NCBI GenBank assembly: GCA_902573325.1
Contig: CACGJH010000002.1
Location: 115,207-179,206, forward strand
Origin: an uncultured Alphaproteobacteria bacterium
GTDB taxonomy: Bacteria > Pseudomonadota > Alphaproteobacteria > HIMB59 > GCA-002718135
Direction: 5' to 3'
Length of the DNA stretch: 64,000 nucleotides
Part shown: positions 15,235 through 37,367 of the stretch, in pieces
How positions within the stretch are numbered: the first letter of the stretch is position 1
Layout of the letters: the number at the start of each line of letters is the position of its first letter
The notes under the pieces: generated by a model
Told to the model about the DNA's origin: nothing
Seen by the model: the letters and a program-made list of their open reading frames with translations, nothing else
Database searches by the model: none
Made by a program: the position numbers and the translations under genes

Positions 15235-15248
15235 TTTTGGGAGGAATT

Positions 15249-19235: not shown

Positions 19236-19246
19236 ACAAAATATCT

Positions 19247-19277
19247 AAAGGCGAATTTTTTAAATTCGCCTTTTTTT
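19247..19277 (+). terminator. Stem-loop with T-tract between SBP 3 and its permease
   Basis: AAAGGCGAATTT / AAATTCGCCTTT perfect 12-bp stem, TTTTTTT tail. Confidence 0.8.
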
Positions 19278-19280
19278 ACT

Positions 19281-20195
19281 ATGCACAAAAAACCTCTATC
19301 TAAACAAATATATGATGCAAGATGGTGTTACTTATTTGTTTTACCATGCTCAATTCTTACAGGAATGTTTGTCATTTATCCTATTGGAATGTCTTGGTAT
19401 TTTTCTTTATTAGATTGGAGTGGTTTTACAAAAGAAGCAAAATTTATTGGCCTTCAAAATTATTATGAAGCTGTCAACGATGAATTCTTTTGGGATGCAT
19501 TCATTCGTTCTTTTATTTTTATGTTTGGAACAGTTCCAGTAAAAATAGTTTTAGGTTTCATTATTGCAGTATTTTTAAATAATCAGGTTTTAAAACTTGC
19601 CCCTTTCTTTCGTACTGTAATCTTTATGCCTGTAGTTACTGCAATTGCTATCATTGGTATTGTAATGACTTTTGTATTTAGCCCTTTTAATGGACCTGCT
19701 AATAAATTTTTAATGTCTACTAATTTAACTTCTGCTCCAATTGATTTTCTTGGAAACCCAGATACGGTGCTTCCAACTGTAATGGGAGTGTATGTATGGA
19801 AATGGCTAGGGATAACCATGATGTATTGGCTTGCTGCTTTACAAACAGTCCCACAAGATGTTTACGATGCCGCAAAAATTGATGGTGCTGAAGGATATAG
19901 ATTATGGATCCATATTATTTTACCAATTGTACTACCTTTTGCTATTGTCATTATTCTTGTGGAGGCAGTTGGAGCGCTAAATGTTTTTCCTTTAATTGAA
20001 ACTATGACTGCTGGAGGACCATTCTTTAGTAGTGAAGTTATGGAAATATATATTTTTAGAACAGCTTTTGTAACTGACTCTGGAACAATGCCAAGGCTTG
20101 GATACGCTTGTGCTGCAGGTGTATTTTGGGGTGTTGCTGTTTTATTTATTACAGTGCTTCAGGGATTATGGATGAGGAGAACTCGAAGAATATGA
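19281..20195 (+). CDS. CUT1-type sugar ABC transporter permease
   Basis: Six-TM-like; EAA-like loop DAAKIDGAEGYRLWIHIILP. Confidence 0.88.
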   Translation: MHKKPLSKQIYDARWCYLFVLPCSILTGMFVIYPIGMSWYFSLLDWSGFTKEAKFIGLQNYYEAVNDEFFWDAFIRSFIFMFGTVPVKIVLGFIIAVFLNNQVLKLAPFFRTVIFMPVVTAIAIIGIVMTFVFSPFNGPANKFLMSTNLTSAPIDFLGNPDTVLPTVMGVYVWKWLGITMMYWLAALQTVPQDVYDAAKIDGAEGYRLWIHIILPIVLPFAIVIILVEAVGALNVFPLIETMTAGGPFFSSEVMEIYIFRTAFVTDSGTMPRLGYACAAGVFWGVAVLFITVLQGLWMRRTRRI

Positions 20196-21043
20196 GTAGA
20201 TACTTAAATTTTATTGCTGAAAAAAACCAAGTTAAATATTTAATTATAACTATAGCTTTTATTATTTTCTCTTTCTTTTGGATCTATCCATTACTGTGGG
20301 TACTTTCAGCTTCTTTCAAAACGGATTTTGAAATTTGGGGAGGCTTAGGCTTAATTCCTGATCGGCTTGTTTGGGAAAATTTCGAAAGAGCATGGTTTGG
20401 TGCAAATATGGGTAGGTATTTTTTTAATACCCTTATTATTACAGTTGTTTCTGTAATTATAGTTGTCGTAACAACTGGTATGTTTGGTTACGTAATTGGA
20501 AGATATTCTTTTCCAGGAAAAAAAATACTTATTGGAATTTTAATTAGTACAATTTTTATTCCTCAAGGTTACACAATTATTCCTGTTTTTGATTTATTAA
20601 ATAATTTAAATATTTCTAAAAACTTAATTGGACTAACACTCGCAACAGCAGGGCACACCCCTGTAATTTATATTTTATTGTTTGCAGGATATTTTTCGAG
20701 AGTTCCTGTAGAGCTTGAAGAAGCAGCTAAAATGGATGGAGCGGGTTTTGTTCGAACATTTATTTCAATTATGTTACCTTTAACAAAACCAGTAGTAGCC
20801 ACTGTTTCTATTTTACAAGTTTTACATGCATGGAATGATTTTTTATTACCAGTCGTCATCACATTAGGTAATCCTGATATACGAACACTATCCGTAGGTG
20901 TGTACGCTTTTAAAGGTGAATACTTTGTCGATTGGTCTGGTATGGCAGCTGCATCTGTTATAACTATTTTGCCTATAATTATTTTATTTTTGTTTATGCA
21001 AAAATATTTTGTTGAAGGTGTTCAAGGAGCTGTAAAAGGGTAA
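20192..21043 (+). CDS. CUT1-type sugar ABC transporter permease
   Basis: EEAAKMDGAGFVRTFISIMLPLTKP; ATG 20192 overlaps previous stop (ATGA); ORF track starts earlier at 20108. Confidence 0.88.
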   Translation: MSRYLNFIAEKNQVKYLIITIAFIIFSFFWIYPLLWVLSASFKTDFEIWGGLGLIPDRLVWENFERAWFGANMGRYFFNTLIITVVSVIIVVVTTGMFGYVIGRYSFPGKKILIGILISTIFIPQGYTIIPVFDLLNNLNISKNLIGLTLATAGHTPVIYILLFAGYFSRVPVELEEAAKMDGAGFVRTFISIMLPLTKPVVATVSILQVLHAWNDFLLPVVITLGNPDIRTLSVGVYAFKGEYFVDWSGMAAASVITILPIIILFLFMQKYFVEGVQGAVKG

Positions 21044-21045
21044 AT

Positions 21046-22587
21046 ATGAAAAGGCCAAATATTTTATTAATAACTTCTGATCAACAGCATCACGATACTA
21101 TCGGAAAATTTAATTCAAAAATACAAACACCGTATTTAGATAAGCTTTGTGATGAGGGAATGAATTTTACAAGAGCTTATTGTCCATCACCAGTTTGCAC
21201 GCCGTCAAGAGCAAGTATTATTACTGGACAATATCCGTCTTCTCATGGAGCTTGGACAATTGGAGTTAAATTAGATGAAGAAGTAGAAACTATTGGAGAA
21301 CTTTTATACAAAAATGGATATTCAACTGGGTTAATAGGTAAAGCACATTTCCAGCCATTAACTTCAGTTCCAGGTCAGGAATCTATAGAAGGACAACCAA
21401 CTTTAAGAGATTTAGAATTTTGGAAAAATTTTAAAGGACCTTGGTATGGCTTTGAGCATATTGAGCTAGCACGTAATCATGCAGATGAAAGTCATGTAGG
21501 TCAACATTATGCAATTTGGATGGAACAAAACGGTCTTAGTGATTGGAAAGAATATTTTCAACCAGTGCCTGGTGAAACTTCTAAATATGCTCCTCCAATT
21601 GCTCGTGAATATGACTACTGGGCAAGACCGGATAGGGTTTGGAAGTTAGATGAAAAACATCACTACACAAATTGGACAGCTGAAAGATCAATTGAATTTT
21701 TAGATCAACAAAAAGATGACAAGCCATTTTTTCTTTGGACAAGTTTTCAGGATCCACATCCACCATATGTATTAAGTGAACCATGGGCATCAATGTATAA
21801 TCCAGAAGACATGTCACCTGGAACGTTAAAAGAAGGTGAACACGAATTAAATCCACCACATTTTGGAAAAACACAAACGACAAATCCTGATTTTGAAAAT
21901 TGGCATTCACCATTTAACGCTCATGGATGCATGAGTCATCTGTATCCTATGGAAGAATTAAAAAAAGACATGGCAATTTATTATGGCATGGTTAGTTTTA
22001 TGGATAAGAATATTGGAAAAATAATTAATAAGTTAGATCAAATGGGTGAACTTGATAATACTATAATTATTTTTACTACTGATCATGGTCACTTTATAGG
22101 ACAGCATGGTTTAATTGCTAAAGGACCTTTCCACTATGAAGATATGCTCCGTTTACCATTTATTGTTAGATGGCCAGATAAAGTTCCTCAAAATTCATCA
22201 TCTTCATCTTTATTAAGTTTAGTTGATCTTGCGCCAACATTTTTAAAAATCGCGGGCATTGATATACCAACCCAAATGCAAGGAGTAGATCAAACGGATG
22301 TATTTTATGGCAACAAGGAAAGTATCCGTTCACATATATTTGTTGAAAATAGACATAATCCAAGAATGCCACATTTAAAAACTTACATTAATGATAATTA
22401 TAAAATTTCTATTTACCGAGAAGCTAACTACGGTGAACTTTTTGATTTAGAAAATGATCCAAACGAATATAATAATTTATGGGATAATACGAACGCACAA
22501 ACATTAAAAAAAGATTTATTATTTAAGTTTGCGCAAGCCACATTAAAAGATGAAACATCAAAAATGAAAAGAGTTTCAGGTGCTTAA
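21046..22587 (+). CDS. Sulfatase 1 (Cys-type; no signal peptide)
   Basis: MKRPNILLITSDQQ; C-T-P-S-R formylglycine motif; TTDHGHFIGQHG. Confidence 0.9.
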   Translation: MKRPNILLITSDQQHHDTIGKFNSKIQTPYLDKLCDEGMNFTRAYCPSPVCTPSRASIITGQYPSSHGAWTIGVKLDEEVETIGELLYKNGYSTGLIGKAHFQPLTSVPGQESIEGQPTLRDLEFWKNFKGPWYGFEHIELARNHADESHVGQHYAIWMEQNGLSDWKEYFQPVPGETSKYAPPIAREYDYWARPDRVWKLDEKHHYTNWTAERSIEFLDQQKDDKPFFLWTSFQDPHPPYVLSEPWASMYNPEDMSPGTLKEGEHELNPPHFGKTQTTNPDFENWHSPFNAHGCMSHLYPMEELKKDMAIYYGMVSFMDKNIGKIINKLDQMGELDNTIIIFTTDHGHFIGQHGLIAKGPFHYEDMLRLPFIVRWPDKVPQNSSSSSLLSLVDLAPTFLKIAGIDIPTQMQGVDQTDVFYGNKESIRSHIFVENRHNPRMPHLKTYINDNYKISIYREANYGELFDLENDPNEYNNLWDNTNAQTLKKDLLFKFAQATLKDETSKMKRVSGA

Positions 22588-22603
22588 TTAAGAGAGGATA
22601 AAG

Positions 22604-24103
22604 ATGAGAATTTTATACGTAGACATAGATTCTTTAAGACCTGATCATTTAGGATGTTATGGTTATCATAGAAACACATCTCCTACGATTGACTTAATAG
22701 CAAAAGAAGGAGTCAAGTTTACAAACTTTTATTCAACTGACACACCGTGCTTACCTAGTAGAACTGCTTTGTTCGGTGGCAATTTTGGTTTCAAAACTGG
22801 AGTTGTTAATCATGGCGGTGAATTCTCTGATATTGCTCCTAGAAAAAATATTTGGAATAGAGAATTTAAAGGCGGTTTAAGAGGAGAATATGCTTTTACA
22901 TCTCTTGGAAAAGTTCTTCGAGATGTAGGATATTATACAGCTAGTATTAGTCCTTTTCCTGAAAGACATACGGCCTATCAAGTTTGGTTTGGTTTTACCG
23001 AAACATATGACACTGGAAAAGGTGGTTTAGAAAATGCTGATGAAGTCTACCCTGTTATAAAAAAGTGGTTAGAAAATAATGGAGAAAAAGAAAATTGGTT
23101 CTTACATGTAAATATGTGGGATCCTCATACCCCGTATGATACGCCTGAAGACTTTGGAAATCCTTTTAAAGATGATCCTATCGAAGAATGGGTGACAGAA
23201 GAATTAATTCAAAAACAAAGGAATAGTTTCGGACCGCATAGCGCTAGAGAAGTTCCAGGATTTGATGAAGATCTTGGAGGAAAGTATACAATGGGAGTGG
23301 GTGAAATTAAAAATACTTCTGATGCTAAAGAACAAATTGATGCATATGATACTGGAATTAAGTACGCTGATTTTTATTTAAATAAAGTTTTTGCAGACTT
23401 AAAAAAAATGAATCTTTGGGATGATACAGCAATAATTATTTCAGCAGACCATGGAGAAAATCAAGGCGAGTTAAATGTTTGGGGAGATCACCAAACAGCT
23501 GATCATATAACTAATAGAGTTCCATTAATAATTAGATGGCCGGGGATAACAGATACAAATAAAGGAAGTACTGTAGAGAATAAATTTTATAATTTAGATT
23601 TAACTTCAACTATTTCTCAAATTACTTCATCTTCTCAACCTGATAGATGGGATGGTATTAATTTCACTGAAAATTTAACTAATAGTAAATCATCAAATGG
23701 AAGAGATTATTTAGTTATTAGTCATGGTGCTTGGAGTTGTCAAAGATCTGTAAGATGGGATAATTGGTTACTAATAAGAACGTACGATACTGGTTTAAAA
23801 GATTTTCCAAAATATATGCTTTTTGATATTGAAAAGGATCCTCATGAGTTGAATAATTTAGCAGATCAGCATAAAGATCTTGTAGCTCATGGAATGTTTT
23901 TAATCGATGAGTGGATTGAAGAAAATATGTATGAGGCTGATAGAGGAGATCCACTTCAAGGTGTAATTAGAGAAGGCGGTCCTCATCATGCAAATATTTA
24001 TTCAAAAGTCTGGAATACATATGTTGAGCGTCTTGAAAAAACAGATAGAAAAAAACACGCTGACAATCTTAGGAAATATAAAGGAAAACCTTTTAGTAAA
24101 TAA
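22604..24103 (+). CDS. Sulfatase 2 (Cys-type; no signal peptide)
   Basis: MRILYVDIDSLRPDHLGCYGY; C-L-P-S-R; SADHGENQGE. Confidence 0.9.
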   Translation: MRILYVDIDSLRPDHLGCYGYHRNTSPTIDLIAKEGVKFTNFYSTDTPCLPSRTALFGGNFGFKTGVVNHGGEFSDIAPRKNIWNREFKGGLRGEYAFTSLGKVLRDVGYYTASISPFPERHTAYQVWFGFTETYDTGKGGLENADEVYPVIKKWLENNGEKENWFLHVNMWDPHTPYDTPEDFGNPFKDDPIEEWVTEELIQKQRNSFGPHSAREVPGFDEDLGGKYTMGVGEIKNTSDAKEQIDAYDTGIKYADFYLNKVFADLKKMNLWDDTAIIISADHGENQGELNVWGDHQTADHITNRVPLIIRWPGITDTNKGSTVENKFYNLDLTSTISQITSSSQPDRWDGINFTENLTNSKSSNGRDYLVISHGAWSCQRSVRWDNWLLIRTYDTGLKDFPKYMLFDIEKDPHELNNLADQHKDLVAHGMFLIDEWIEENMYEADRGDPLQGVIREGGPHHANIYSKVWNTYVERLEKTDRKKHADNLRKYKGKPFSK

Positions 24104-24115
24104 ATCTAAATCATA

Positions 24116-25483
24116 ATGAATACTAAATCTAAACCAAACATCATTGTATTTTTTACTGATCAACAACGTTGGGATACTTCTAGTTTACATGGCAATCCAT
24201 TATCATTGATGGAGAACTTTGATCATTATGCAGTTGAAGGCACACATCTTTATAATTCATTTACATGCCAACCAGTTTGTGGGCCTGCAAGAGCTTCATT
24301 ACAATCAGGAATGTATGCAACAAAAACTGGATGTTTTAAAAATAGAATACCTTTAAAAAAAAATATTAAAACTCTTGCAAAATATTTATCAAAAGAAGGT
24401 TATGCCACTGGATATATTGGAAAATGGCATCTCGGCTCTTCTGAACCAGTTAAAAAAGAGGATAGAGGTGGTTATGATTATTGGTTGGGATCAAATCTAT
24501 TAGAATTTACTTCTGATGCTTATGAAACATATGTTTATGATGGACAAAATAAAAAAGTATTTCTTCCAGGATATAGAGTTGATGCAATAACTGATGCAGC
24601 TATAAATTTTATAAAACTAAATCAAAAAAAACCATTTTTTCTTTTTGTTTCTCTTATTGAGCCACATCATCAAAATAATACAGATGATTATCCACCACCT
24701 ATTGGATACAGAGAAAAATATACAGGCAAGTGGTCACCACCAGATCTTTCAACTCTAGTTGGATCTTCTCCTCGCCATTTAGGTGGCTACTATGGAATGG
24801 TGAAGAGAATAGATGAAGCTTATGGTAGAATGATTGATGTCATCAAAAGTTTAAAATTATTTGATGATAGTGCCATTATTTTTACATCTGATCATGGAAA
24901 TAATTTTAAAACACGAAATAGAGAATATAAACGTTCATGTCATGAAAGTTCAATACGAGTTCCTACTTCTTTAATTGGAAATGTTTTCCAACAAGGTGGA
25001 CGTATAAAAGAACTAACTAATATTTTAGATATTCATGCAACAATATTAGATTTGGCAAATGTCAAAAATACCTCTCATTGTGATGGTAGATCCGTATTGC
25101 CTTTAGTGAATAAAACTTCCAAAAAATGGGAAAACGAAATTTTTATCCAAATTAGTGAAAGTCAATTAGCTAGAAGTTTAAGAACCGAAAAATGGAAATA
25201 TTGTATTGCTGATCATGATTCTAATGGGAGTGATAAACCTTCATCTGATCAATACATGGAAACAAATTTATATGATCTTGATGCTGATCCGTATGAATTA
25301 AATAACTTAATTGGTATTAGTACTTATGATGAAATAGTAAACTCCTTAAGAAAAAAGATTAAAAGTAAAATTAAAAAAGTTGAAAATATAACAACTAAAA
25401 TTGCAAAAGCTAAAAATGTAATTAATCCTGGTCAAATGGGATTAAATCCTGATTCTTTTCATAGATTAAAGAAAAAACTTTAA
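24116..25483 (+). CDS. Sulfatase 3 (Cys-type; no signal peptide)
   Basis: KPNIIVFFTDQQRWDT; C-G-P-A-R; GYIGKWHLG; TSDHGNN. Confidence 0.9.
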   Translation: MNTKSKPNIIVFFTDQQRWDTSSLHGNPLSLMENFDHYAVEGTHLYNSFTCQPVCGPARASLQSGMYATKTGCFKNRIPLKKNIKTLAKYLSKEGYATGYIGKWHLGSSEPVKKEDRGGYDYWLGSNLLEFTSDAYETYVYDGQNKKVFLPGYRVDAITDAAINFIKLNQKKPFFLFVSLIEPHHQNNTDDYPPPIGYREKYTGKWSPPDLSTLVGSSPRHLGGYYGMVKRIDEAYGRMIDVIKSLKLFDDSAIIFTSDHGNNFKTRNREYKRSCHESSIRVPTSLIGNVFQQGGRIKELTNILDIHATILDLANVKNTSHCDGRSVLPLVNKTSKKWENEIFIQISESQLARSLRTEKWKYCIADHDSNGSDKPSSDQYMETNLYDLDADPYELNNLIGISTYDEIVNSLRKKIKSKIKKVENITTKIAKAKNVINPGQMGLNPDSFHRLKKKL

Positions 25484-25513
25484 TAATTATTTTTTTCGTA
25501 TTAATCTGCTTTT

Positions 25514-27022
25514 ATGAAAACAGTTTTTCTTTTATTTGATTCATTAAATAAAAGAATGTTAAATTCTTATGGTGGTAAATATATTGAAACACCAAATTTT
25601 AACCGATTAGCAGAAAAATCAATTCAGTTTAATAATCATTACATTGGTAGTATGCCATGTATGCCGGCAAGACGTGATATGCATTCAGGACGATTAAGTT
25701 TTCTCCACCGTGCATGGGGTCCTTTAGAACCTTTTGACAACTCATTTCCAGAAATATTAAGACTAAATAATACGTATACCCATCTAGTGACTGATCATTA
25801 TCATTACTTCGAAGATGGTGGCGCAACGTATCACAATAGATTTAATTCTTGGGATTTTATTAGAGGACAAGAGAGTGACCCATGGAAAGCTATGGTTCAA
25901 CCGCCTCTTGAAAAATTGAGAGAAAAATATCATCAATCTCAATTAAATTTAACTGATAGGGAAACAGGTTATTATCGTTATGCAATCAATAGTGAGTTTA
26001 TTAAAGAAGAAAAAGATTTTCCTTCTGTTAAATGCTTTCAATCTGGATTAGATTTTATTAATATCAATAAAGATGCAGATAACTGGTTTCTTCAATTGGA
26101 AACTTTTGATCCACACGAACCTTTCTTTGCACCTGAGCGCTTTAGAGAAAAATTAAAAACTAATTACAAAGGTCCAAGATTAGACTGGCCTCAATATGAC
26201 CGGGTCAAAGAAACGGATGATGAAGTTGCCGAATTAAAAGCTAATTACATTGCTTTAATTGGTTTATGTGATTACTTGCTTGGCACTGTCTTAGATTATT
26301 TTGATGAAAATAATTTATGGGATGACACCGCATTGATTTTAACTACTGACCATGGTTTCATGCTTGGTGAACATGATTGGTGGGCTAAAAATAGAATGCC
26401 TTTGTATAATGAAATTGCAAACATACCTTTTTATTTTTATCACCCTGAATACAAACAATACTCAGGCAAGCAAAGAAATGTTGTAACGCAAAATATTGAT
26501 TTAATGCCAACATTCATGACAATGCATGGTCACAATCTTCCTAAAGAGGTTAAAGGTAAATCTATATTAAACTTTCTGGACAAAGACAGTGAAAATGAGC
26601 ATTTTGCTTTGTATGGATATTGGGGCGGAGGAATAAATATATCCGATGGAAATTATACATATTTTCATTTCCCAGAAAATTTTGATCAATATGACAGAAG
26701 TAGATTTCAATATACATTGATGCCAACTAATATGAGGCAATTTTTTTCACACGAAGAGTTACAAACTGCAAGTATGCATGAACCTTTTGATTTTACGAAA
26801 AACATACCAGTAATGAAAGTAAACAAAATTCTTAGAAAAACTGATCCTCATAAATCTTTGGTAGATACTGAAAGTGCACTCTATGATTTAAAAAAAGATC
26901 CAGGTCAATTAAGTCCACTTAATGATATTTCTTTAATGACAAAATATAAAAATATTATGTTGGAAGAAATTAAAAATTACGATCCTCCAGAAGAACTATT
27001 AAAAAATTATTTTAATATATAA
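25514..27022 (+). CDS. Sulfatase 4 (Cys-type; no signal peptide)
   Basis: MKTVFLLFDSLNKRMLNSYGG; C-M-P-A-R; TTDHGFMLGEH. Confidence 0.88.
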   Translation: MKTVFLLFDSLNKRMLNSYGGKYIETPNFNRLAEKSIQFNNHYIGSMPCMPARRDMHSGRLSFLHRAWGPLEPFDNSFPEILRLNNTYTHLVTDHYHYFEDGGATYHNRFNSWDFIRGQESDPWKAMVQPPLEKLREKYHQSQLNLTDRETGYYRYAINSEFIKEEKDFPSVKCFQSGLDFININKDADNWFLQLETFDPHEPFFAPERFREKLKTNYKGPRLDWPQYDRVKETDDEVAELKANYIALIGLCDYLLGTVLDYFDENNLWDDTALILTTDHGFMLGEHDWWAKNRMPLYNEIANIPFYFYHPEYKQYSGKQRNVVTQNIDLMPTFMTMHGHNLPKEVKGKSILNFLDKDSENEHFALYGYWGGGINISDGNYTYFHFPENFDQYDRSRFQYTLMPTNMRQFFSHEELQTASMHEPFDFTKNIPVMKVNKILRKTDPHKSLVDTESALYDLKKDPGQLSPLNDISLMTKYKNIMLEEIKNYDPPEELLKNYFNI

Positions 27023-27025
27023 GTT

Positions 27026-29086
27026 TTAATATTCTAAAACTATAGCTTCATGTATTTGGAATTTATCAATTTTAATATTTATTACCTTAGTATCATTAAT
27101 CTCAATTTTCTTATCTATATTTAAAATAAATATTTTATTTATTTTCTTCTCTAAATTAATAGAAAGTTCAACATTATGAATTTCAGGAACATCTTCAATT
27201 ATTAAACATCTTCCTCTTTGTAATGGAGGAGCATACAAGAGATGAACAACATATCGATTTTTACTTTCTTGATGAAGCAATGTTATTCTCCCAGAACTTG
27301 GCAGACCCTTAGTTTTGATTAATAGATTTTTGTGTAAGTGCCTAATTGTATTTCCAAATAGTTGACGATGAACTTTTGATCCATTTTCTGCATAAATCCT
27401 ATCTAAATCATGAGCAAAAAAAACTGTGTTCTTATATTGTAGTACAGCCGGATAATTTTCTTTATCAAGTTTGTTTGGTGCATATAAGTGTCCATTATAT
27501 TTTTCTAATGTTCGACTAAAATATGGAACTTTAATATCTGCCAGAATATTACTATCCTCAACAACTTCTGATTTAATACCTGGCAAATAAGTTATAAAGG
27601 GAGAGGAAACTAAATTATTTGATAACTCTTTTCTTACTTGTACATAATCCATATCATAATCAGAGGGTCCAATATACTTTGCTCCAACATCAAATATAAA
27701 TTTATCCTTTTTATTATTAAGTGCGCCTTTCCCAATCACAACTAACGTTCCGCCTTTATTCTGAAAATCTTTGAGTTTATTTATTTCTTCTTCTGATAGA
27801 GTATTTGATGAGGGGATAATGATTAATTCAAACTCGTTAATTCTTTCTTGAGAAGCGTTAATACTTACGACTTCGTATTCAATATGCTCTTCCAATAACA
27901 TTCTAGCAACACCATCATCTGCATTGTAAGAACCTGTCAAATAAAGAGCAACATTTGAAAAAGGTTTGCCACCAATTCCATAATCTTCAATTTTTTTTAT
28001 ATATTCAAAAGCAAAACCGACGTTTTTATATGTATCCAAATCCATTTCTCCACTTGGATGAAGATGATCACCAAAATTACATCGTGCACCGTGGGAGATC
28101 ATAGCAGCTGCTTCATATTTTAGTGCTTCAGGATATTTAAAACCTCCAAATTCTCCCCATGAAGTATGAAATTTACCACTCATACCAATTATAGGTTTAT
28201 TTGTATAATTATGAAAATACCTAGACTGAGTTGCTATCTTATCATAGCCACCCCAAGTTGTTGGTAAATCTTCTAAATCATTTTTAGTTGAGTTTTCATG
28301 AACGCGGTATAGTAAATTTTCTTTTCTCTCAAGAACAGTTAAACCATTATAAAATACACTTGCATCTGGTTTCATAGACTGAATATGAGCAGTCATTTTT
28401 TTAGTAAAATTTTTTAGAACAATTTTATTCCAATGAGCATTTACTTCTTCAGGGTTACCGATATCATAACCAGTTTCCTTTATAGATTGCTTACAATTAT
28501 CACAGTAACATTTTAGTTGTGTGAAATGTATATCAAAGAAAAAACCATCCACTTGATAATTTGAACACAATTCAGTAACCACATTTGAAATTAATTCTTC
28601 ATAATTTCCTGAGGGACACATAAATTTCCAATTACAATAAGGTCTAAACTCTTTACTTTTTTTTCTTATCTCTTTATCGCTATGTTGACCGGTACTTGTA
28701 ATTTCTTCAATTTCGTTTCCAGTTTTTTTATTAAACTCAATTATACTTCCATCACTATTTCTTGCGCACCATTCTGGATGAATTTCAGCATCATGTGCTG
28801 ACCATCCGACAGTTAAATATATTGGAGCTTTTACATTAATTTCGTGACAAGCTTCAATTTGTTGACCTAGTAAATCAATATTCAAATTTGGATGAATTTT
28901 TGCATGCTTTACTTTTGTTGGATAATAACACCAACTATGATGACATTTTCCAAAAATATTAATTTGATTAATATGTCCAATTTGTAGAGCTTCTTTAAAT
29001 TGTTCTTTTGAAAAATATTTTCCAACATCAGGAATATGCTCTGATGTGTGAAAATCTAAGTGTATTTGCCTTGATGGTTCATTCAT
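27026..29086 (-). CDS. Glycoside hydrolase, GHL6/GH151-like (putative alpha-L-fucosidase), with Glyco_hydro_42M-like domain; no signal peptide
   Basis: RQIHLDFHTSEHIPDVG, KCHHSWCYYPTKV, VDGFFFDI, then ISHGARCNFGDHLHPSGEMD and a flavodoxin-like middle domain (ELIIIPSSNTLSEEEINKLKDFQNKGGTLVVIG). Confidence 0.6.
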   Translation of the reverse strand: MNEPSRQIHLDFHTSEHIPDVGKYFSKEQFKEALQIGHINQINIFGKCHHSWCYYPTKVKHAKIHPNLNIDLLGQQIEACHEINVKAPIYLTVGWSAHDAEIHPEWCARNSDGSIIEFNKKTGNEIEEITSTGQHSDKEIRKKSKEFRPYCNWKFMCPSGNYEELISNVVTELCSNYQVDGFFFDIHFTQLKCYCDNCKQSIKETGYDIGNPEEVNAHWNKIVLKNFTKKMTAHIQSMKPDASVFYNGLTVLERKENLLYRVHENSTKNDLEDLPTTWGGYDKIATQSRYFHNYTNKPIIGMSGKFHTSWGEFGGFKYPEALKYEAAAMISHGARCNFGDHLHPSGEMDLDTYKNVGFAFEYIKKIEDYGIGGKPFSNVALYLTGSYNADDGVARMLLEEHIEYEVVSINASQERINEFELIIIPSSNTLSEEEINKLKDFQNKGGTLVVIGKGALNNKKDKFIFDVGAKYIGPSDYDMDYVQVRKELSNNLVSSPFITYLPGIKSEVVEDSNILADIKVPYFSRTLEKYNGHLYAPNKLDKENYPAVLQYKNTVFFAHDLDRIYAENGSKVHRQLFGNTIRHLHKNLLIKTKGLPSSGRITLLHQESKNRYVVHLLYAPPLQRGRCLIIEDVPEIHNVELSINLEKKINKIFILNIDKKIEINDTKVINIKIDKFQIHEAIVLEY

Positions 29087-29279
29087 TAAAACAGCTTATT
29101 TTATAAATTATTAAAATTAAATAATTTTTTGAAAAAAAATTTAAAGTTTAAAAATTAAGTAATTCTCTAGGTTTTTTTATACTTTGAAACTGGCTCTAAA
29201 AGACAAAAACATTCAAAAAGTATTTATTTTTGGCTCTTTTATGCTAACTTCTTCTTATCTTAATAAGGAGGAATGTAAG

Positions 29280-30563
29280 ATGAAACAATATTTTAGTCGT
29301 ATATGGACTGGATTATTAATTACTTTTTTTTCTTTTTCTTTTATTAGCAGCTCGTATGCTATTGATATAAAACTTTGGGATCTGTCTGGTAGACAAGGTC
29401 AAGATGAGTTTTATGAACTTTTACAAAAAGAAGTAAGTAAATATAATCCAGATATTAATGTTATTGTTACTGAGTGGGAAAACGAGGCATATAAAACTCA
29501 AATTCAACTTGCTCTAAATGGTAACGATGGACCTGATGTCTTCTTTAACTGGTTTGGTGAAGATAGTGCAAGATTAGCAAGAGCTGGTTTAGCACTAGAT
29601 CTTACACCTTACGCTGATATGGAAGGTGGTTATGGAAACTTTATAAGTAAAGGTTGGCAAGATGCTGGTGCAGTAGATGGAAAAATTTATGGTGTTGCTA
29701 ATAAAGCAGTTTCAAAATACTTTTATTACGATCCTGCATTCTTTGATCAGCATAACTTATCTGTTCCTACAACATTTGGAGAGTTAATTGATACTTGTAA
29801 AAGTATTAAAGCAATAGATCCTTCAATCGTTCCATGGCCAATGGGTAATTCTGAAAGATGGAAATTGAATCATGTTATTACTATGCTTAATCAAAGAGTA
29901 GTAGGAGCAGAAAACACAAAAGCAGATTATGCGTTAACTGCACCTGATGATGAATTATTCACAAATCCTAAATATGTTGAAGCTTGGGAAAAAGTTGTTG
30001 AACTAAATGAAAATTGTTTCAATGATGCGCCTAATGCAACTAATCCAGAATTAACTAGATCAATGTTTGCAGCCCAAATTTCACCAATGATGTATTGTGG
30101 AACTTGGTGTGGAGGTATTTTTGCTTCTGAAGGTTTTACAGATTTTAAAATGTTTAGATTTCCACGTGTTGAAGGTGGAGCTGATGATGGAACTGTAGGC
30201 TTTCTAGTTGCAGAAGGATTACAAGTATCGGCAAAAACTAAACATCCAGAAGCAGCAGCTTTAGTAGCATCAATCAATGTATCTGATAATATGGCTTTAG
30301 CAGATGCTGAATTGAGAGGTAGTTTGATATCAAATGCAGCTTTAATTGATCAAATGAAAGATGCTCCTCATTGGTTTACATTTTATGTCAATGATATCGC
30401 TGACAAAAGTGGGCATGTAAATGTTTTAGATGTTCTTTTAGAAGCGAATGTATCTAATGCTTATCTTGATATGGGAACTGAAGTTCTTAATGGAACAAAA
30501 TCTCCTCAAGAGGCAATGGATTTCATTAGAAAAGTTGCTTTAGAAGCTAAAGCAGCAATGTAA
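29280..30563 (+). CDS. Extracellular solute-binding protein (CUT1 family)
   Basis: Sec signal MKQYFSRIWTGLLITFFSFSFISSSYA; GNDGPDVFFNWFGE; ATG 29280 after aaggagg (ORF track start 29184 is upstream of the SD). Confidence 0.87.
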   Translation: MKQYFSRIWTGLLITFFSFSFISSSYAIDIKLWDLSGRQGQDEFYELLQKEVSKYNPDINVIVTEWENEAYKTQIQLALNGNDGPDVFFNWFGEDSARLARAGLALDLTPYADMEGGYGNFISKGWQDAGAVDGKIYGVANKAVSKYFYYDPAFFDQHNLSVPTTFGELIDTCKSIKAIDPSIVPWPMGNSERWKLNHVITMLNQRVVGAENTKADYALTAPDDELFTNPKYVEAWEKVVELNENCFNDAPNATNPELTRSMFAAQISPMMYCGTWCGGIFASEGFTDFKMFRFPRVEGGADDGTVGFLVAEGLQVSAKTKHPEAAALVASINVSDNMALADAELRGSLISNAALIDQMKDAPHWFTFYVNDIADKSGHVNVLDVLLEANVSNAYLDMGTEVLNGTKSPQEAMDFIRKVALEAKAAM

Positions 30564-30576
30564 TATATAAATTAAT

Positions 30577-30603
30577 TTCGGCTATTAAAAATTAATAGCC
30601 GAA
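30577..30603 (+). promoter_or_regulatory. Stem-loop without U-tract between SBP 4 and its permease
   Basis: TTCGGCTATTAA-AAA-TTAATAGCCGAA perfect 12-bp inverted repeat. Confidence 0.7.
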
Positions 30604-30611
30604 GTTATCAT

Positions 30612-31517
30612 ATGAATAAGACTCAAACAAACTCAGTTGGCTTTTCCTTATCAAGTGATAGGGTTTCTGTAATTATTCTCTTAATCCCAGCGCTTATATT
30701 TTGTACAGTATTTATATTTATTCCTGCATTTTGGGCCATTGTTGGATCCTTTTATAGCTATGGGATGACTTCTCTTAATGATTGGAAATGGGTTGGTTTT
30801 GATAATTATATAAAAGCGTCACAGGATGAATTTTTTTGGATTGCACTAAAAAATAATTTTATAATTGTCTTTGCATCAATCGTCCTGCAAGTAGGTGTAG
30901 GTACAATACTTGCAGCAATCTTAGATCGAGGAATAAAATATGGAAAAGTAATTTTTCGAACTATTATATTTACACCAATGGTTATATCATCTGTTGCAGT
31001 AAGTATAATTTGGTTAATAATTTATGATCCAAATGTTGGAATTTTAAATAGTATATTAAAATCAATAGGTTTGCCTACACCTTCAATGGGTTGGTTGGGG
31101 GATCCCGATATATCTATTTGGATGATTATGATTGTTGCGGGCTGGCAAAATACTGGATTTATGATGGTTTTAATCTTAGCTGGGCTACAAGGAGTTTCTA
31201 AAGAGGTTTATGATGCAGCAGAGATAGATGGTGCAACAGGAGTTAAAGCATTTTGGTACATTACTCTTCCCATGATTAGAAATATTTTAATTGTTGCAAT
31301 ATTGATAACAACAATTGGTGCATTTAAAGTATTCGAATTTGTTTATGTCTTAACGCAAGGTGGTCCATCGAATGCAACTCAAGTATTAGGAACATATATT
31401 TATTTACAAGCATTTAATTTATTGCATATGGGTTATGCTAATGCTTTGTCAGTTGTACTATTAATTATTGCTTTAATTTTAGGTTGGTTTCAACTTAAAG
31501 CAAGTAGGAGAGCCTAG
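30612..31517 (+). CDS. CUT1-type sugar ABC transporter permease
   Basis: DAAEIDGATGVKAFWYITLPM EAA loop; hydrophobic. Confidence 0.88.
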   Translation: MNKTQTNSVGFSLSSDRVSVIILLIPALIFCTVFIFIPAFWAIVGSFYSYGMTSLNDWKWVGFDNYIKASQDEFFWIALKNNFIIVFASIVLQVGVGTILAAILDRGIKYGKVIFRTIIFTPMVISSVAVSIIWLIIYDPNVGILNSILKSIGLPTPSMGWLGDPDISIWMIMIVAGWQNTGFMMVLILAGLQGVSKEVYDAAEIDGATGVKAFWYITLPMIRNILIVAILITTIGAFKVFEFVYVLTQGGPSNATQVLGTYIYLQAFNLLHMGYANALSVVLLIIALILGWFQLKASRRA

Positions 31518-32335
31518 TGAGTAAATTTAAGTTAGCTAATATATTTGCTTACGGTTTTGTGACTCTCTTTAGTATTTATGTACTTTTACCAATAATAGTG
31601 ATGATACTGACCACTTTTAAAACAAGAAGGGAAATTTTTTTAGAACCACTTGGTTTACCAGGTCAATTTAATTTCTCTTCATTTGAAAAAGCATTATCCA
31701 TTGGCCTTGGAGGTTTCATTTTTAATTCTTTCTTGGTTTCATTATTTTCAGTTATTTTAATTGTAATAATCTCAGGAATGGCGGCTTATGTTTTAGCAAG
31801 AATTGATTTTCGAATAAATAGATATGTATATTTATTAATCGTTGCAGGTTTCGCAATACCGCCAGCAGCTGTGCTCGTACCACTCTATGCAACAGTATCA
31901 AATTTAGGTTTATTAAATAGTATATATGGTGTTGTTATGCCATTAACTGCATTTGGGATCCCATTCACAGTTATTCTATTTTATGCTTTTTTTTTAGATT
32001 TTCCAAAAGAAGTTGAGGAAGCAGCTACTATTGATGGTTGTAGCAAAATGCAGATTTTTTTTAGAATTATTATTCCCTTATCTGGTCCAGCTATTGCAAG
32101 TGCAGCAATTTTTCAAACCGTTTGGATCTGGAATGAGTTTCTATTAGCATTAATCATGCTGACATCTGATGAAGTAAAAACTTTGCCTTTAGGATTAATG
32201 AAGTTAAGAGGAGAATGGTCATCAGATTGGCCTTCAATTATGGCTGGACTAACTATAGCAATTTTACCAGTTCTCATAGTGTTCTTGATTTTCCAAAAAT
32301 ACTTTGTAAGATCATTAGCTGGTTTAGGAAAATAA
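31517..32335 (+). CDS. CUT1-type sugar ABC transporter permease
   Basis: EEAATIDGCSKMQIFFRIIIPLSGP; starts on previous stop. Confidence 0.88.
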   Translation: MSKFKLANIFAYGFVTLFSIYVLLPIIVMILTTFKTRREIFLEPLGLPGQFNFSSFEKALSIGLGGFIFNSFLVSLFSVILIVIISGMAAYVLARIDFRINRYVYLLIVAGFAIPPAAVLVPLYATVSNLGLLNSIYGVVMPLTAFGIPFTVILFYAFFLDFPKEVEEAATIDGCSKMQIFFRIIIPLSGPAIASAAIFQTVWIWNEFLLALIMLTSDEVKTLPLGLMKLRGEWSSDWPSIMAGLTIAILPVLIVFLIFQKYFVRSLAGLGK

Positions 32336-32340
32336 ATATA

Positions 32341-32619
32341 ATGGCCAAAAGACAAAAAGTTTTAGTTCTGTATTTAAAGTTTCCAAGTTTAGAAGCTGAA
32401 GTTATATCATGGGCTACTTTTGATGGTACGGGAAAAAAACTTCATATGACGGGCGATAGCGATGAACCTCCTTATCCTACAGGCTTAGATGCTTTGCTGG
32501 ATGGATGGAGATTATTTCAGGCCAGCCAAGCTATTCCTGAACACCCAGGTCAAGAATTTAGAACATCTTATTTAAAACATGAATTTTTTTTTGAAAAATT
32601 AGAAGAAGGAGATTTTTAA
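32341..32619 (+). CDS. Small uncharacterised protein (92 aa) paired with a PhyH dioxygenase
   Basis: MAKRQKVLVLYLKFPSLEAEVISWATFDGTG...; ATG 32341 lies just after the permease stop; ends immediately before the next CDS. Confidence 0.7.
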   Translation: MAKRQKVLVLYLKFPSLEAEVISWATFDGTGKKLHMTGDSDEPPYPTGLDALLDGWRLFQASQAIPEHPGQEFRTSYLKHEFFFEKLEEGDF

Positions 32620-32620
32620 T

Positions 32621-33541
32621 ATGCCAAAACTTTTAACAACAGAGCAAATGGCAGAATTTGCTAGTAGTGGATGCTTATTTTTTGATGCACTTATAGACGA
32701 AAAAACAAATAAAGAGTTTTTGGATGATATTGGTCATACTGAAATTGATAAAGTTGATACTGTTCAAGATTATTATAAAAATATAAAAGCAACTAGTAGT
32801 ATCCCTAGAATACCTGCAGGAACACCACTTAAGGATGCTTATCCTAAGAATTCACCACTAGAAAAAATTTTTCAAAATGAAGTTGTTGATGGTGCTATTA
32901 AAAGTTTAGTTGGCGATAGCACAATTATTGATCATCAGTTCCTTCATATAACATTTCCTACTAAATATTTTAAACAGGCAAATCAACGTCAGATGTCTCA
33001 GCAAAATCATCAAGACAGCACAATTGACCCTAGAAACACTTTTGATGTTCAAGTATTTTACTTCCCAACAGAAGTAACTAAGGAAATGGGCGGAACAAGA
33101 TATCATCCTGGTACTCACTTACGTATTGTTAATGAGTTTGGAATTGCAAAATATCAAAATATTAAAGGTCAAAAAAGTATTGTTTGTAAACCAGGTACTA
33201 TAGGTATTTTTCATAATGGTTTGTGGCATGGTGCTGGCGTAAATTTTTCTGAAAATATACGTTACATGTTTAAAGTTAGACTACAACCTACAGAGAAACA
33301 AGAGCTGTTATGGGATCCTGAAAAAAAATATCAACCTTTACCTAATCGTGCTCTGTATTGGACAGATGAAACTAAAGATAAAACCATAAATGATATTTTA
33401 ATGCAGTCTTATCCTTGGCAAGAAGCTGATACAAATAGGCTTGATAAAATAAATGTCGTTAAGTTTTGGAGGTTATTAACTGGTCACAACAAAATGGATG
33501 TTGACTATTGGCTTACAAGAATTGAAAATGAATTATATTAA
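32621..33541 (+). CDS. Phytanoyl-CoA dioxygenase (PhyH) family oxygenase
   Basis: HQDS (HxD), LWHGAGVN distal His, IRYMFKVRLQ. Confidence 0.75.
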   Translation: MPKLLTTEQMAEFASSGCLFFDALIDEKTNKEFLDDIGHTEIDKVDTVQDYYKNIKATSSIPRIPAGTPLKDAYPKNSPLEKIFQNEVVDGAIKSLVGDSTIIDHQFLHITFPTKYFKQANQRQMSQQNHQDSTIDPRNTFDVQVFYFPTEVTKEMGGTRYHPGTHLRIVNEFGIAKYQNIKGQKSIVCKPGTIGIFHNGLWHGAGVNFSENIRYMFKVRLQPTEKQELLWDPEKKYQPLPNRALYWTDETKDKTINDILMQSYPWQEADTNRLDKINVVKFWRLLTGHNKMDVDYWLTRIENELY

Positions 33542-35043
33542 TTGAAATCTCTTTCATCACCTTTTAGTGGAACAACATCACAAGTTTCTTGATACCATGA
33601 AAGCATTTTATCTTTAAGATCTTTAAGTTCTGAAGCATATTGTGGATCGTCAATAACATTATTAATTTCTCCAGGATCTTCAACTAAATTATAAAGCTCA
33701 TCTTTTTCGTAAGCTCTTTTAATATATTTAAATTTTTTATTTCTGCACATTGTTGCTTTGGTATGCATTAAAATTTCATCCTCTTGACCTTGTAAACTAA
33801 CTCTAGGGTAATAAAGGCCATGGGGCAATTGAAGACTTTGATTTTCACTTGCTTGTCTTTCTAACCTAAGTCTACCACCCTCCGTAAATACTTCTTCTCT
33901 ATGATCATCAGTTTTCTGTTCAATAAAATTTTTAATACTTTTGCCAAAATGCCAATATGAGGGCTCGATATTACTGTAATCATATATGGTTCCCGCAATA
34001 TCAATTAACTCAATCATTGTATCGCTTACACCATTTAATGTATTTTCACTTTTTGGTGGTTTAATAATAAGAGGAACATTCGTAAGACAGTCTTGAAAAG
34101 TATTTTGTGTTTTTTCAACTAAATTATAATCACCTGTAAAGTCACCATGATCAGATAAAAAAATTATCAAAGTATCATCATAAAAATTATTTTCTTTTAG
34201 TTGATTGACTAAAAGTCCAAATTGATAATCTACTCTTGCACACATACCAAGATATACTGCTCGTAATTCATTCCAACGTTCATCGGTCCAATCTTGCATT
34301 CTTTGCCCATCCATAATTCCTTTTAAAAGACTAGGCTTGTCTTCCCAAGTTTTGTATTGATATCTAATAGGTATTACGCTTCGATCAATTGAAGAAAACC
34401 ATGGATCCTCTACACAGTAAGGAGGATGCGGATAACCAAGTGGTAGAAATAAACAGAATGGTTTTTCTTGTTTATAATCTTTTATAAAATCTAATGCTCC
34501 ATAAACCATGGACCAATCATCATCGAAATAAATATCTTTATCTTTTTTATCTAATTTTCCTTTAAAGAAACTATAATAATTATCTCCATCTTCAGGTCCT
34601 CGCCATGTTAAATCTCCTCCATGAGTACCAGGTTGTTGAGAGTAATTCCATTTTTGAAAATCTCTATCAGTTGGTTCAAAATAAATATCACAATGATTAC
34701 GATAACCCTCTTGTCCTGCTATCAAATCATTTTTTCCACCCCACCATATAAAGTAATCTTTATTTTTTAGTTCTGATAAAATGCTAGAGTCTCCTTGGTC
34801 AGTATGTAGCATATAATGCATTGTTCTATGACCATGTACATGTGGATACCAGCCAGTCATAAATGAGCAACGACTTGGTGTACAAACTGTCGCTTGGCAA
34901 AAAGCATTCTTAAATGCAACTGCGTCTTCTTTAATTATATTATCTAAATTAGGAGTTTGTGCGCCTGGATAACCAAGATATCCAAGCATATCTCCTCTCC
35001 ATTGATCTGGATTAAATATAATGATGTTTGGTTTATTTTTCAT
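33538..35043 (-). CDS. Sulfatase 5 (Cys-type; no signal peptide)
   Basis: KPNIIIFNPDQWRGDMLGYLGYPGAQTPNLD; C-T-P-S-R; LSDHGDFTGDY. Confidence 0.9.
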   Translation of the reverse strand: MKNKPNIIIFNPDQWRGDMLGYLGYPGAQTPNLDNIIKEDAVAFKNAFCQATVCTPSRCSFMTGWYPHVHGHRTMHYMLHTDQGDSSILSELKNKDYFIWWGGKNDLIAGQEGYRNHCDIYFEPTDRDFQKWNYSQQPGTHGGDLTWRGPEDGDNYYSFFKGKLDKKDKDIYFDDDWSMVYGALDFIKDYKQEKPFCLFLPLGYPHPPYCVEDPWFSSIDRSVIPIRYQYKTWEDKPSLLKGIMDGQRMQDWTDERWNELRAVYLGMCARVDYQFGLLVNQLKENNFYDDTLIIFLSDHGDFTGDYNLVEKTQNTFQDCLTNVPLIIKPPKSENTLNGVSDTMIELIDIAGTIYDYSNIEPSYWHFGKSIKNFIEQKTDDHREEVFTEGGRLRLERQASENQSLQLPHGLYYPRVSLQGQEDEILMHTKATMCRNKKFKYIKRAYEKDELYNLVEDPGEINNVIDDPQYASELKDLKDKMLSWYQETCDVVPLKGDERDFN

Positions 35044-35169: not shown

Positions 35170-36420
35170 ATGAAATTATTACTAAAAATATTTTTCTCAC
35201 TAACTATTTTGATGTCATTTAGTTCTGTTAAAGCAGATACTATAAAGTGGCTTCACTTATTTGGTGAAGACTCAAGTTCATATGCTAACATGGTTAGGGC
35301 TGTTGAAGAATTTGAAGCTAAAACAGGACACACTGTTGTTATGCAGTATTTAGAAAATGAATCATTCAAAGCAAAGTTACCTACGATGCTTCAATCAAAT
35401 GATAGACCAGATATATTTTATAGCTGGAGTGGTGGAGTTATGTATGATCAAGCCAGAGCTGGTTTTTTAAGAGATATCTCCAATGTTGTACCAGATAGTT
35501 ATTTGGATACTGTTAGTGCAGCAGCAGCAGATGCTTTTACATTTGAAGGTCAAAGAGTAGGTTTACCTTTACAAGTATCGCAAGTTGCTTGGTGGTATAA
35601 TAAAGATCTTATCAATCAAGCCGGAGTTGACGTTTCAGCCATCAAAGAATGGGATGATTTAATTAGTGCTGTAAAACAAATCAAAGCAGCAGGAATTACT
35701 CCTATTTGTATGGGTGGTAAAGATAAATGGCCTGTTCACTTTCTTTGGACACACCTCCACATAAGAAATGGTGGAAAAGAATTGTTTCTTGAATCACTTA
35801 ATAATGGTGGTTGGGATAGACCAGAATACTTAAAATCAGGTGAGCAAATGCTCGAGCTAGTTGCTTTAGAACCTTTTCAAAAAGGATTTTTATCACACAC
35901 TTGGCCAGATCAAGCAGGTTTTTTTGGAGACGGTAAATGTGCAATGGCACTTATGGGTAACTGGATGTATGGTTCTCAAAAAGCTAACAGTTCAAGTGGT
36001 GAAGGTTTAGGAGATGATAATATGGGAATGTTTAATATGCCAATGACGAGTGGTGGTCTCGGTGATGCTGGGGACACACTTGGCGGTATAAATGGTTGGT
36101 TATTCTCAAGTAGTGCTCCTGACTCAGCAGTTGAATTTATTATGCATTATGTATCTCTTGATATTCAAAAAGATGATGCAGGAAAAGGTGCTTATATACC
36201 TATCGTGAAAGGTGCTGATGTATCTCTTACAAATCCTTTCTTGCAACAAGTTGCACAAAATATCTCCAACTCAGAATATCATCAAATATTTTATGATCAG
36301 TTCTTGGGTGCAGATATTGGTAGGGTTGTTAATGACGTATCTACTGATTTAGCGGCAGGAATTATTACTCCTGAAGAAGCTACTCAAGCTGTTCAAGAAG
36401 CTTGGGAATTTAATCAATAA
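35170..36420 (+). CDS. Extracellular solute-binding protein (CUT1 family)
   Basis: Signal peptide MKLLLKIFFSLTILMSFSSVKA; RPDIFYSWSGG; ALMGNWMYG; SD gggagg. Confidence 0.87.
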   Translation: MKLLLKIFFSLTILMSFSSVKADTIKWLHLFGEDSSSYANMVRAVEEFEAKTGHTVVMQYLENESFKAKLPTMLQSNDRPDIFYSWSGGVMYDQARAGFLRDISNVVPDSYLDTVSAAAADAFTFEGQRVGLPLQVSQVAWWYNKDLINQAGVDVSAIKEWDDLISAVKQIKAAGITPICMGGKDKWPVHFLWTHLHIRNGGKELFLESLNNGGWDRPEYLKSGEQMLELVALEPFQKGFLSHTWPDQAGFFGDGKCAMALMGNWMYGSQKANSSSGEGLGDDNMGMFNMPMTSGGLGDAGDTLGGINGWLFSSSAPDSAVEFIMHYVSLDIQKDDAGKGAYIPIVKGADVSLTNPFLQQVAQNISNSEYHQIFYDQFLGADIGRVVNDVSTDLAAGIITPEEATQAVQEAWEFNQ

Positions 36421-36427
36421 TATAAAT

Positions 36428-36460
36428 ATCAGGGCTCTTTTTTTAATTAAGGGCCCTGTT
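36428..36460 (+). promoter_or_regulatory. Stem-loop between SBP 5 and its permease
   Basis: CAGGGCTC...GGGCCCTG stem (one G-U pair). Confidence 0.65.
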
Positions 36461-36467
36461 CATAGCT

Positions 36468-37367
36468 ATGAGATCAGCAAAATTTGATGCACTACTTAGT
36501 AGGTATTATACAATAATAATCTTTTTAATACCTGCCTTAACAATATTTACTTTGTTTGTAGTTCTTCCAATAGGTGAAGCAGCCTATTACAGTTTTTTTA
36601 GATGGAATGGCTATGGTGCACCTGAGAAATTTGTTGGACTTAAAAATTATGAATTTTTATTCAAAAATAGAGTGTTTATTATGTCACTCAAAAATAATTT
36701 TTATATAATTGCTATATCATTATTTGTTCAATTACCATTTGCTCTTTTAATTGCTTTAATGATTTCAGATAAACTCAGAGGAGCAGCTTTTTTTAGAACA
36801 GTTTTCTTTCTTCCATTTATTTTAGCAGAAATAGTTACGGCGTTAATTTGGGCATACATTTATGATGGTAATTATGGTTTAGTTGCTGCAATTTGGGGTT
36901 TCTTCGGTGCAGAAGCTCCATTCATACTTGGTGATAAAGATTGGGCACTCTTAGCGATTTTAATTGTTATATTTTGGAAATTTTTTGGAATCCACATGAT
37001 GATTTATATTGCAGGATTACAAGCTATTTCAAAAGAAGTTTTAGAAGCTGCTAAAGTAGATGGTGCAGGCCCAATAACGACTGCTTTTAGAATTAAAATA
37101 CCAATGCTTATTCCGACAATTAAGCTGTCAGTATTTTTATCACTATTAGGTAGTTTACAGCTATTTGATATTATTATGCCACTAACAGGAGGAGGACCTT
37201 CAAATGTAACGCATTCGATGGTCTCTTATTTGTATTATTTTGGTGTAATGCGTATGAAAGTTGGTTTTGGAAGTGCGGTTGGAGTTGTAATATTCTTAAT
37301 CTGTTTATTTATTGCAATTGGTTATCAAAGAACATTAATGAGGGATGATAATGAAAACAAATTTTAG
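36468..37367 (+). CDS. CUT1-type sugar ABC transporter permease
   Basis: EAAKVDGAGPITTAFRIKIP EAA loop. Confidence 0.88.
   Translation: MRSAKFDALLSRYYTIIIFLIPALTIFTLFVVLPIGEAAYYSFFRWNGYGAPEKFVGLKNYEFLFKNRVFIMSLKNNFYIIAISLFVQLPFALLIALMISDKLRGAAFFRTVFFLPFILAEIVTALIWAYIYDGNYGLVAAIWGFFGAEAPFILGDKDWALLAILIVIFWKFFGIHMMIYIAGLQAISKEVLEAAKVDGAGPITTAFRIKIPMLIPTIKLSVFLSLLGSLQLFDIIMPLTGGGPSNVTHSMVSYLYYFGVMRMKVGFGSAVGVVIFLICLFIAIGYQRTLMRDDNENKF

Follow-up and report, generated by a model that had tools for sequence, protein, structure and literature searches.

Organization of the Locus

The analyzed stretch of contig CACGJH010000002.1, from an uncultured Alphaproteobacteria bacterium, is 64,000 nucleotides long (hereafter, the window) and carries, between positions 21,046 and 35,043, five sulfatase genes (S1–S5) and a glycosidase gene. 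Three CUT1-type importers flank the sulfatases (17703–21043, 29184–32335 and 35170–38175), each consisting of a solute-binding protein (SBP1–SBP3) and two permeases (P1a to P3b). The genes of the first importer lead directly into the sulfatases, with a gap of 2 bp between P1b and S1 and successive gaps of 12–30 bp from S1 to S4. The genome holding the window is a 1.46 Mb assembly of 37 contigs, 89.7% complete, and its closest relatives, as judged by S1, are single-cell marine Alphaproteobacteria. For comparison within the clade, a family sample of 110 genomes was used, 85 of which carry sulfatases (approximately 319 sulfatase hits).

Sulfatases and Glycosidase

A profile search revealed that S1–S5 are the sole PF00884 matches in the genome of the window, all scoring 101–188 bits (cut-off 25), and each of them contains a Cys-type C-x-P-x-R motif (CTPSR, CLPSR, CGPAR, CMPAR and CTPSR, respectively). 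The motif is invariant in the 20–34 complete clade copies of each sulfatase and is also found in three further sulfatase types of the clade (20 other loci read); three S5 copies have no match to it, and their contigs end nearby. Based on domain and motif, the five genes are predicted to encode type I (formylglycine-class) sulfatases of the S1 family. None of them reaches the 433 bits of the choline sulfatase equivalog TIGR03417 (best score, 197.9 bits for S1), and the closest solved structures, such as 9ihk (labelled S1_30A; 166 bits for S1), are too distant for substrate assignment. The glycosidase has a single PDB match, the alpha-L-fucosidase 6tvk (E-value, 4.5e-111, over residues 6–686 in two stretches). 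By this full-length similarity it is a GH151-type alpha-L-fucosidase relative, its activity being predicted.

Among the other sulfatases of the clade, a PehA-like sulfatase/phosphonate-ester hydrolase with CGPSR or CGPAR is widespread (L172–L174, L176, L182, L184–L188, L190); its gene is flanked by those for an SBP_bac_5 binding protein and a methionine-synthase-like protein.

Absence of Leader Peptides

According to the first-pass annotation of this DNA, all six enzymes lack signal peptides, and the nearby binding proteins have them. Open reading frames (ORFs) were called from the most upstream ATG, GTG or TTG, and going back from the start, an in-frame stop is met after 11 (S1), 5 (S2), 3 (S3), 4 (S4), 28 (S5) and 4 (GH151) codons, with no ATG, GTG or TTG in between in any of the six. 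A leader missed through a wrong start codon of these three kinds is ruled out by the upstream stops. Hydrophobicity was measured as the maximum 12-residue Kyte-Doolittle mean within the first 40 residues, and ranges from -0.34 to 0.89 in the six enzymes, as compared to 2.2–2.7 in three Sec-exported binding proteins encoded in the window and 1.4 in the Tat-exported one. Both the five sulfatases and the GH151/GHL6-like enzyme thus appear leaderless, as had been claimed. The contrast with the binding proteins holds as well: a twin-arginine leader is seen in SBP1 (PF10518 at 21.6 bits, below the cut-off of 22.7) and a Sec leader in SBP3, and that of SBP2 is visible only when translation is taken to begin at residue 33 (32 codons into the ORF as listed), an internal ATG that is likely the real start. 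The longest ORF of P1b also starts too far upstream, overlapping P1a by 88 bp, and the true start is probably internal to it.

Inspection of homologs, which the annotation had named as a check for longer N-termini, gave the same picture. S1 homologs that begin at the first beta-strand (beta1) are found in Deinococcota, Chloroflexota, Planctomycetota, Armatimonadota, Bacillota, and Alpha- and Gammaproteobacteria, and in nearly all S1 homologs, the start nearest the alignment lies at most about three residues from that of the window S1. The exceptions are L112, which has no start there, L107, in which the farthest-upstream start gives a short hydrophobic stretch, and L126, which is cut off. Outside the clade, six S2, two S3, two S4 and one S5 homologs also begin at beta1, and other sulfatases of the clade are likewise leaderless and adjoin transporter genes (SBP_bac_5 binding protein or TRAP DctM). 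Because S1 homologs of many phyla share this start, leaderlessness, as read from the predicted N-termini, is a trait of a broad sulfatase family and not peculiar to this genome. The annotation had emphasized the departure from the usual periplasmic or extracellular sulfatases; the trait is shared well beyond this organism, and type I sulfatases of the cytoplasm were already known.

Importers and Synteny

The CUT1 assignment is based on SBP_bac_1 binding proteins, on permeases recognized by position and synteny, and on three MalK-type ATPases encoded elsewhere in the genome, one of them about 5.4 kb upstream of the window (C2:109677). The SBP1-P1a-P1b-S1 unit recurs in 15 loci outside the clade, with hosts including Devosia, Martelella, Aliiruegeria, Roseibium/Labrenzia, Cognatishimia, Tropicimonas, Granulosicoccus and Trueperaceae. 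The locus from Trueperaceae (Deinococcota; L087:1-13051) has the order S4, S3, S5, LacI-like regulator, SBP1, P1a, P1b, GH4 glycosidase, S1, S2, and its cassette is 52–68% identical to that of the window. The occurrence of all five sulfatases together with the same importer suggests transfer of the cassette between phyla. GH4 enzymes use NAD+, and for this reason the GH4 glycosidase of this cassette fits a cytoplasmic pathway. In relatives, S1–S5 stay, and the segment between S4 and S5 (27026–33541; GH151, SBP2-P2a-P2b and PhyH2) is replaced or absent, which looks like an exchange of the portion that encodes importer and glycosidase.

The whole genome, at its completeness of 89.7%, gave no match to a TonB plug domain, in line with the earlier statement that the window lacks a TonB/Sus receptor. 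The ORF and Pfam reading of the window, in which part of the ORFs were scanned, gave no secreted hydrolase that would contradict the annotation.

It is highly improbable that the sulfatases reach the periplasm without leaders of their own, for instance carried along by a Tat substrate, and are active there. Tat hitchhiker export exists for other enzymes, and SBP1 of the same operon is a Tat substrate, but to our knowledge there is no sulfatase case. Moreover, the sulfatases are leaderless in many phyla, including Gram-positive and single-membrane lineages, and the partner glycosidases GH151 and GH4 are leaderless or NAD+-dependent.

Substrate

The substrate is presumably a small sulfated sugar, perhaps a 6-deoxyhexose, as suggested by a set of sugar-acid genes near the start of the window. 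The FAH-family hydrolase encoded there is nearest to 2,4-didehydro-3-deoxy-L-rhamnonate hydrolase (375.6 bits; cut-off, 500), and these genes, as far as their predicted functions go, do not separate fucose from rhamnose. GH151 is found in two of the 34 other clade loci (L060 and L068), that is, in 3 of 35 with the window included. Given this rarity and the ambiguity of the sugar-acid genes, sulfated fucose or galactose, which the first-pass annotation had named for binding assays, is not established as the substrate.

Sulfatase Maturation

Type I sulfatases need conversion of the active-site cysteine to formylglycine, which is carried out by the formylglycine-generating enzyme (FGE) or the anaerobic sulfatase-maturating enzyme (anSME). 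Searches of the window's own genome gave no match to PF03781 (FGE family), no SPASM protein and no match to TIGR03942 (anSME model). In the family sample, FGE-family proteins of 231–250 aa are present in 17 of 110 genomes; the ten that were read (L035–L044) all lack both active-site cysteines, with RGGSFFYAQDHWHVGGGARK in the place where canonical FGE has GGSFLCHRSYCFRYRIAAR. Only two of these 17 genomes (G024 and G060) carry S1. The PF03781 proteins were rejected as candidates for FGE, since all ten that were read are devoid of the Cys pair and 31 of the 33 cassette (S1-bearing) genomes have none of these proteins. No anSME above the cut-off was found in the 110 genomes, and SPASM proteins occur, scattered, in 30 of them. 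The cassette genomes are on average 78% complete, and the chance of missing an FGE-family maturase in 31 of 33 by incompleteness is about 1e-22, if each genome had one; chance loss of the maturase in this way is very unlikely. The absence of both FGE and anSME, which the first-pass annotation had missed, is a stronger anomaly than the absence of leaders.

Outside the clade, an FGE-family match was obtained in 36 of the 46 genomes with an S1 homolog, and the canonical Cys pair is present in 22 of the 30 outside loci read. Several of the best matches, in Planctomycetota, PVC and other groups, lack the pair; as a control, the count of 36/46 was therefore too generous, and it was replaced by the 19 outside S1 carriers that are nearest in the tree. 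Fifteen of these carry a Cys-pair FGE and two an anSME; in the remaining two, neither was detected. The difference between 17 of 19 outside genomes and 0 of 33 in the clade is significant (Fisher p 8e-12), with the clade being one lineage whose genomes are not independent. The drafts of Paramesorhizobium deserti (L093) and Cognatishimia sp. (L104) contain S1 homologs with neither FGE nor anSME detected, and may be either additional examples of this anomaly or the result of gaps in the assemblies. In Roseibium/Labrenzia (L102, L103, L105 and L106), an FGE gene is located directly behind S1, where the window has S2.

It is improbable that a known maturase, either highly divergent or encoded in unsequenced parts of the genomes, was overlooked. 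The assemblies are 53–96% complete, a 475-aa radical SAM protein of one relative reaches 75 bits to the anSME model, far under the cut-off, and the 30 genomes with some SPASM protein might point in the same direction. The same search, however, caught FGE homologs in 36 of the 46 outside genomes as well as the divergent, Cys-less ones of the clade, one of the 31 cassette genomes without a match is 96% complete, and none of the SPASM matches is in the window's own genome.

The two PhyH-type oxygenases of the cluster were also considered as the missing maturase. The PhyH2 gene runs into the end of S5, that of PhyH1 is located upstream of the first importer, and an iron oxygenase could in principle oxidize cysteine. 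PhyH proteins encoded beside sugar genes usually have small-molecule substrates, however, and neither gene is universal among sulfatase genomes: PhyH2 was not found in two of the cassette genomes (G054 and G060) or in several genomes that carry other sulfatases, and PhyH1 is missing from several sulfatase-bearing genomes and has an in-frame stop in the cassette genomes G060 and G071. Both were rejected, and such a role is scarcely credible. In relatives G041, G060, G065, G071 and G081, the PhyH1 gene is interrupted by an in-frame TAA and has apparently begun to decay in some members of the clade.

Given that neither FGE nor anSME was found in the clade, the sulfatases might work on unmodified cysteine, or as slow generalist ester hydrolases, in a slow-growing oligotroph that needs no maturase. 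This appears unlikely, though less so than an overlooked maturase. All complete clade sulfatases that were read, of eight gene types, retain the full CxPxR motif; its proline would serve recognition by the maturase and not catalysis, and its preservation leans weakly toward modification. The choline sulfatase of Ensifer meliloti, produced recombinantly with Cys54 unmodified, performs multiple turnovers with a low kcat, but formylglycine is reported to raise kcat 5- to 2500-fold (PMC6189696).

We think that another formylglycine-forming activity is the most likely answer, ahead of function with unmodified cysteine. Tentatively, the clade may mature its Cys-type sulfatases by a third formylglycine-generating system, encoded in a genome of 1–1.6 Mb. 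There is a precedent for such a system, because in Escherichia coli, according to Benjdia et al. 2007 as cited in PMC6189696, Cys-type sulfatases are apparently matured by the enzyme of neither known system. On intracellular bacterial sulfatases and FGE-independent maturation, little literature was found beyond PMC6189696 and PMC3141025.

Proposed Pathway

Based on these results, the locus is probably (roughly 75%) an import-then-desulfate cassette, in which CUT1 import would be combined with cytoplasmic sulfatases that are activated without FGE or anSME. Import followed by intracellular desulfation had been proposed in the first-pass annotation, and the leaderless enzymes, the position of S1 2 bp behind the importer, the 15 outside loci, the lack of a TonB plug domain and the GH4 enzyme of Trueperaceae all argue for it. 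Small sulfated sugars would enter the periplasm, presumably via porins, as the genome gave no TonB plug match, and would there be captured by the CUT1 ABC importers, with SBP1 being exported by Tat, and SBP2 and SBP3 by Sec. The importer ATPase may be supplied from elsewhere, such as C2:109677 just upstream of the window. In the cytoplasm, the five Cys-type sulfatases, activated without either known enzyme, would strip the sulfate esters, glycosidic bonds would be cut by the GH151-type alpha-L-fucosidase (or by the GH4 enzyme in Trueperaceae), and sugar dehydrogenases together with the 6-deoxyhexose acid pathway would complete catabolism.

Several points weigh against this interpretation. Cytoplasmic location and activity are deduced from sequence, the Kyte-Doolittle test is a crude stand-in for SignalP, and the nature of the substrate is presumed, with GH151 missing from most clade copies of the cassette. 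In addition, the single-cell assemblies are incomplete, and the genomes form one clade, so that counts are not independent events.

Table 1. Predicted features of the sulfatase locus and its surroundings (positions in the window).
Feature	Position	Strand	Evidence
6-Deoxyhexose-type sugar-acid pathway	76..4005	+	Enolase-superfamily dehydratase PF13378, SDR PF13561, FAH-family hydrolase PF01557, FMN-dependent lactate dehydrogenase PF01070
PhyH1 oxygenase	15237-16184		Upstream of first importer
SBP1, CUT1-type solute-binding protein, twin-arginine leader (ISRRTVMKGALAAGAMMSA)	17703..19235	+	PF01547, PF10518; co-conserved with S1 in outside-clade loci
P1a, permease of SBP1 importer	19281..20195	+	Synteny; 51-61% identity outside clade
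P1b, second permease of SBP1 importer	20108..21043	+	Synteny, spacing
S1, leaderless type I sulfatase, CTPSR	21046..22587	+	PF00884 E 2.9e-55; upstream stop; leaderless homologs in many phyla
S2, leaderless type I sulfatase, CLPSR	22604..24103	+	PF00884 E 1.8e-38; upstream stop; motif in 32 clade copies
S3, leaderless type I sulfatase, CGPAR	24116..25483	+	PF00884 E 1.1e-47; upstream stop; motif in 31 clade copies
S4, leaderless type I sulfatase, CMPAR	25514..27022	+	PF00884 E 1.1e-28; upstream stop; motif in 31 clade copies
GH151-type alpha-L-fucosidase relative, leaderless	27026..29086	-	GHL6 PF14871; PDB 6tvk E 4.5e-111
SBP2, CUT1 binding protein	29184..30563	+	PF01547; leader (MKQYFSRIWTGLLITFFSFSFISSSYA) from internal ATG, residue 33
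P2a, CUT1 permease	30612..31517	+	Position beside SBP2 and P2b; synteny in some clade loci
P2b, CUT1 permease	31517..32335	+	ORF position; synteny in some clade loci
PhyH2, PhyH-family Fe(II)/2-oxoglutarate oxygenase	32621..33541	+	PF05721 E 7e-11; overlaps S5 3' end by 4 bp
S5, leaderless type I sulfatase, CTPSR	33538..35043	-	PF00884 E 1e-32; stop 28 codons back, no common start codon between
SBP3, CUT1 binding protein, Sec leader	35170..36420	+	PF01547 E 3.4e-35; leader
P3a and P3b, permeases of third CUT1 importer	36468..38175	+	ORF position; synteny

Comparison with Known Systems

As a novelty, the cytoplasmic sulfatases themselves are modest, and the missing maturase is the notable part: an abundant marine clade is rich in Cys-type sulfatases and has neither of the known activators. 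The cassette may represent a route by which streamlined, TonB-poor plankton gain access to sulfated sugars, with small pieces being imported and desulfated inside. If so compact a genome depends on a third maturation system, as it seems to, the candidates would narrow to about 1500 genes, and if function with the bare cysteine proved true, the practice of sulfatase annotation would change.

Choline sulfatase BetC and AtsA of Pseudomonas aeruginosa are cytoplasmic type I sulfatases. The enzymes of the window resemble them as leaderless type I members of the alkaline phosphatase superfamily that would act on imported sulfate esters, and differ in that five are located in one sugar-import cluster, none at the choline-sulfatase cut-off. 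E. meliloti has a putative FGE (PMC6189696), whereas none was found in the clade of the window. As in TonB/Sus polysaccharide utilization loci, the sulfatases are found beside glycosidases and sugar catabolism genes; in contrast to such loci, the genome is without a TonB plug domain, the six enzymes are leaderless, and ABC import would take the place of the receptor.

For AEGEAN169 'Ca. Indicimonas', a non-phosphorylating fucose pathway has been reported, along with an average of five sulfatases per genome (PMC11366302). Both data sets consist of GORG-type marine alphaproteobacterial single-cell genomes, their sulfatase numbers agree, and they may represent the same clade. That paper reports GH29, whereas the fucosidase of the window is of the GH151 type, and the words formylglycine, signal peptide and cytoplasm were not found in it (PMC11366302). 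The third system of E. coli is similar in that Cys-type sulfatases are apparently handled without known FGE or anSME. The evidence for it is heterologous maturation in deletion mutants, whereas the present evidence comes from a naturally occurring clade, which encodes up to eight native sulfatases in a genome of 1–1.6 Mb and appears to manage without both enzymes.

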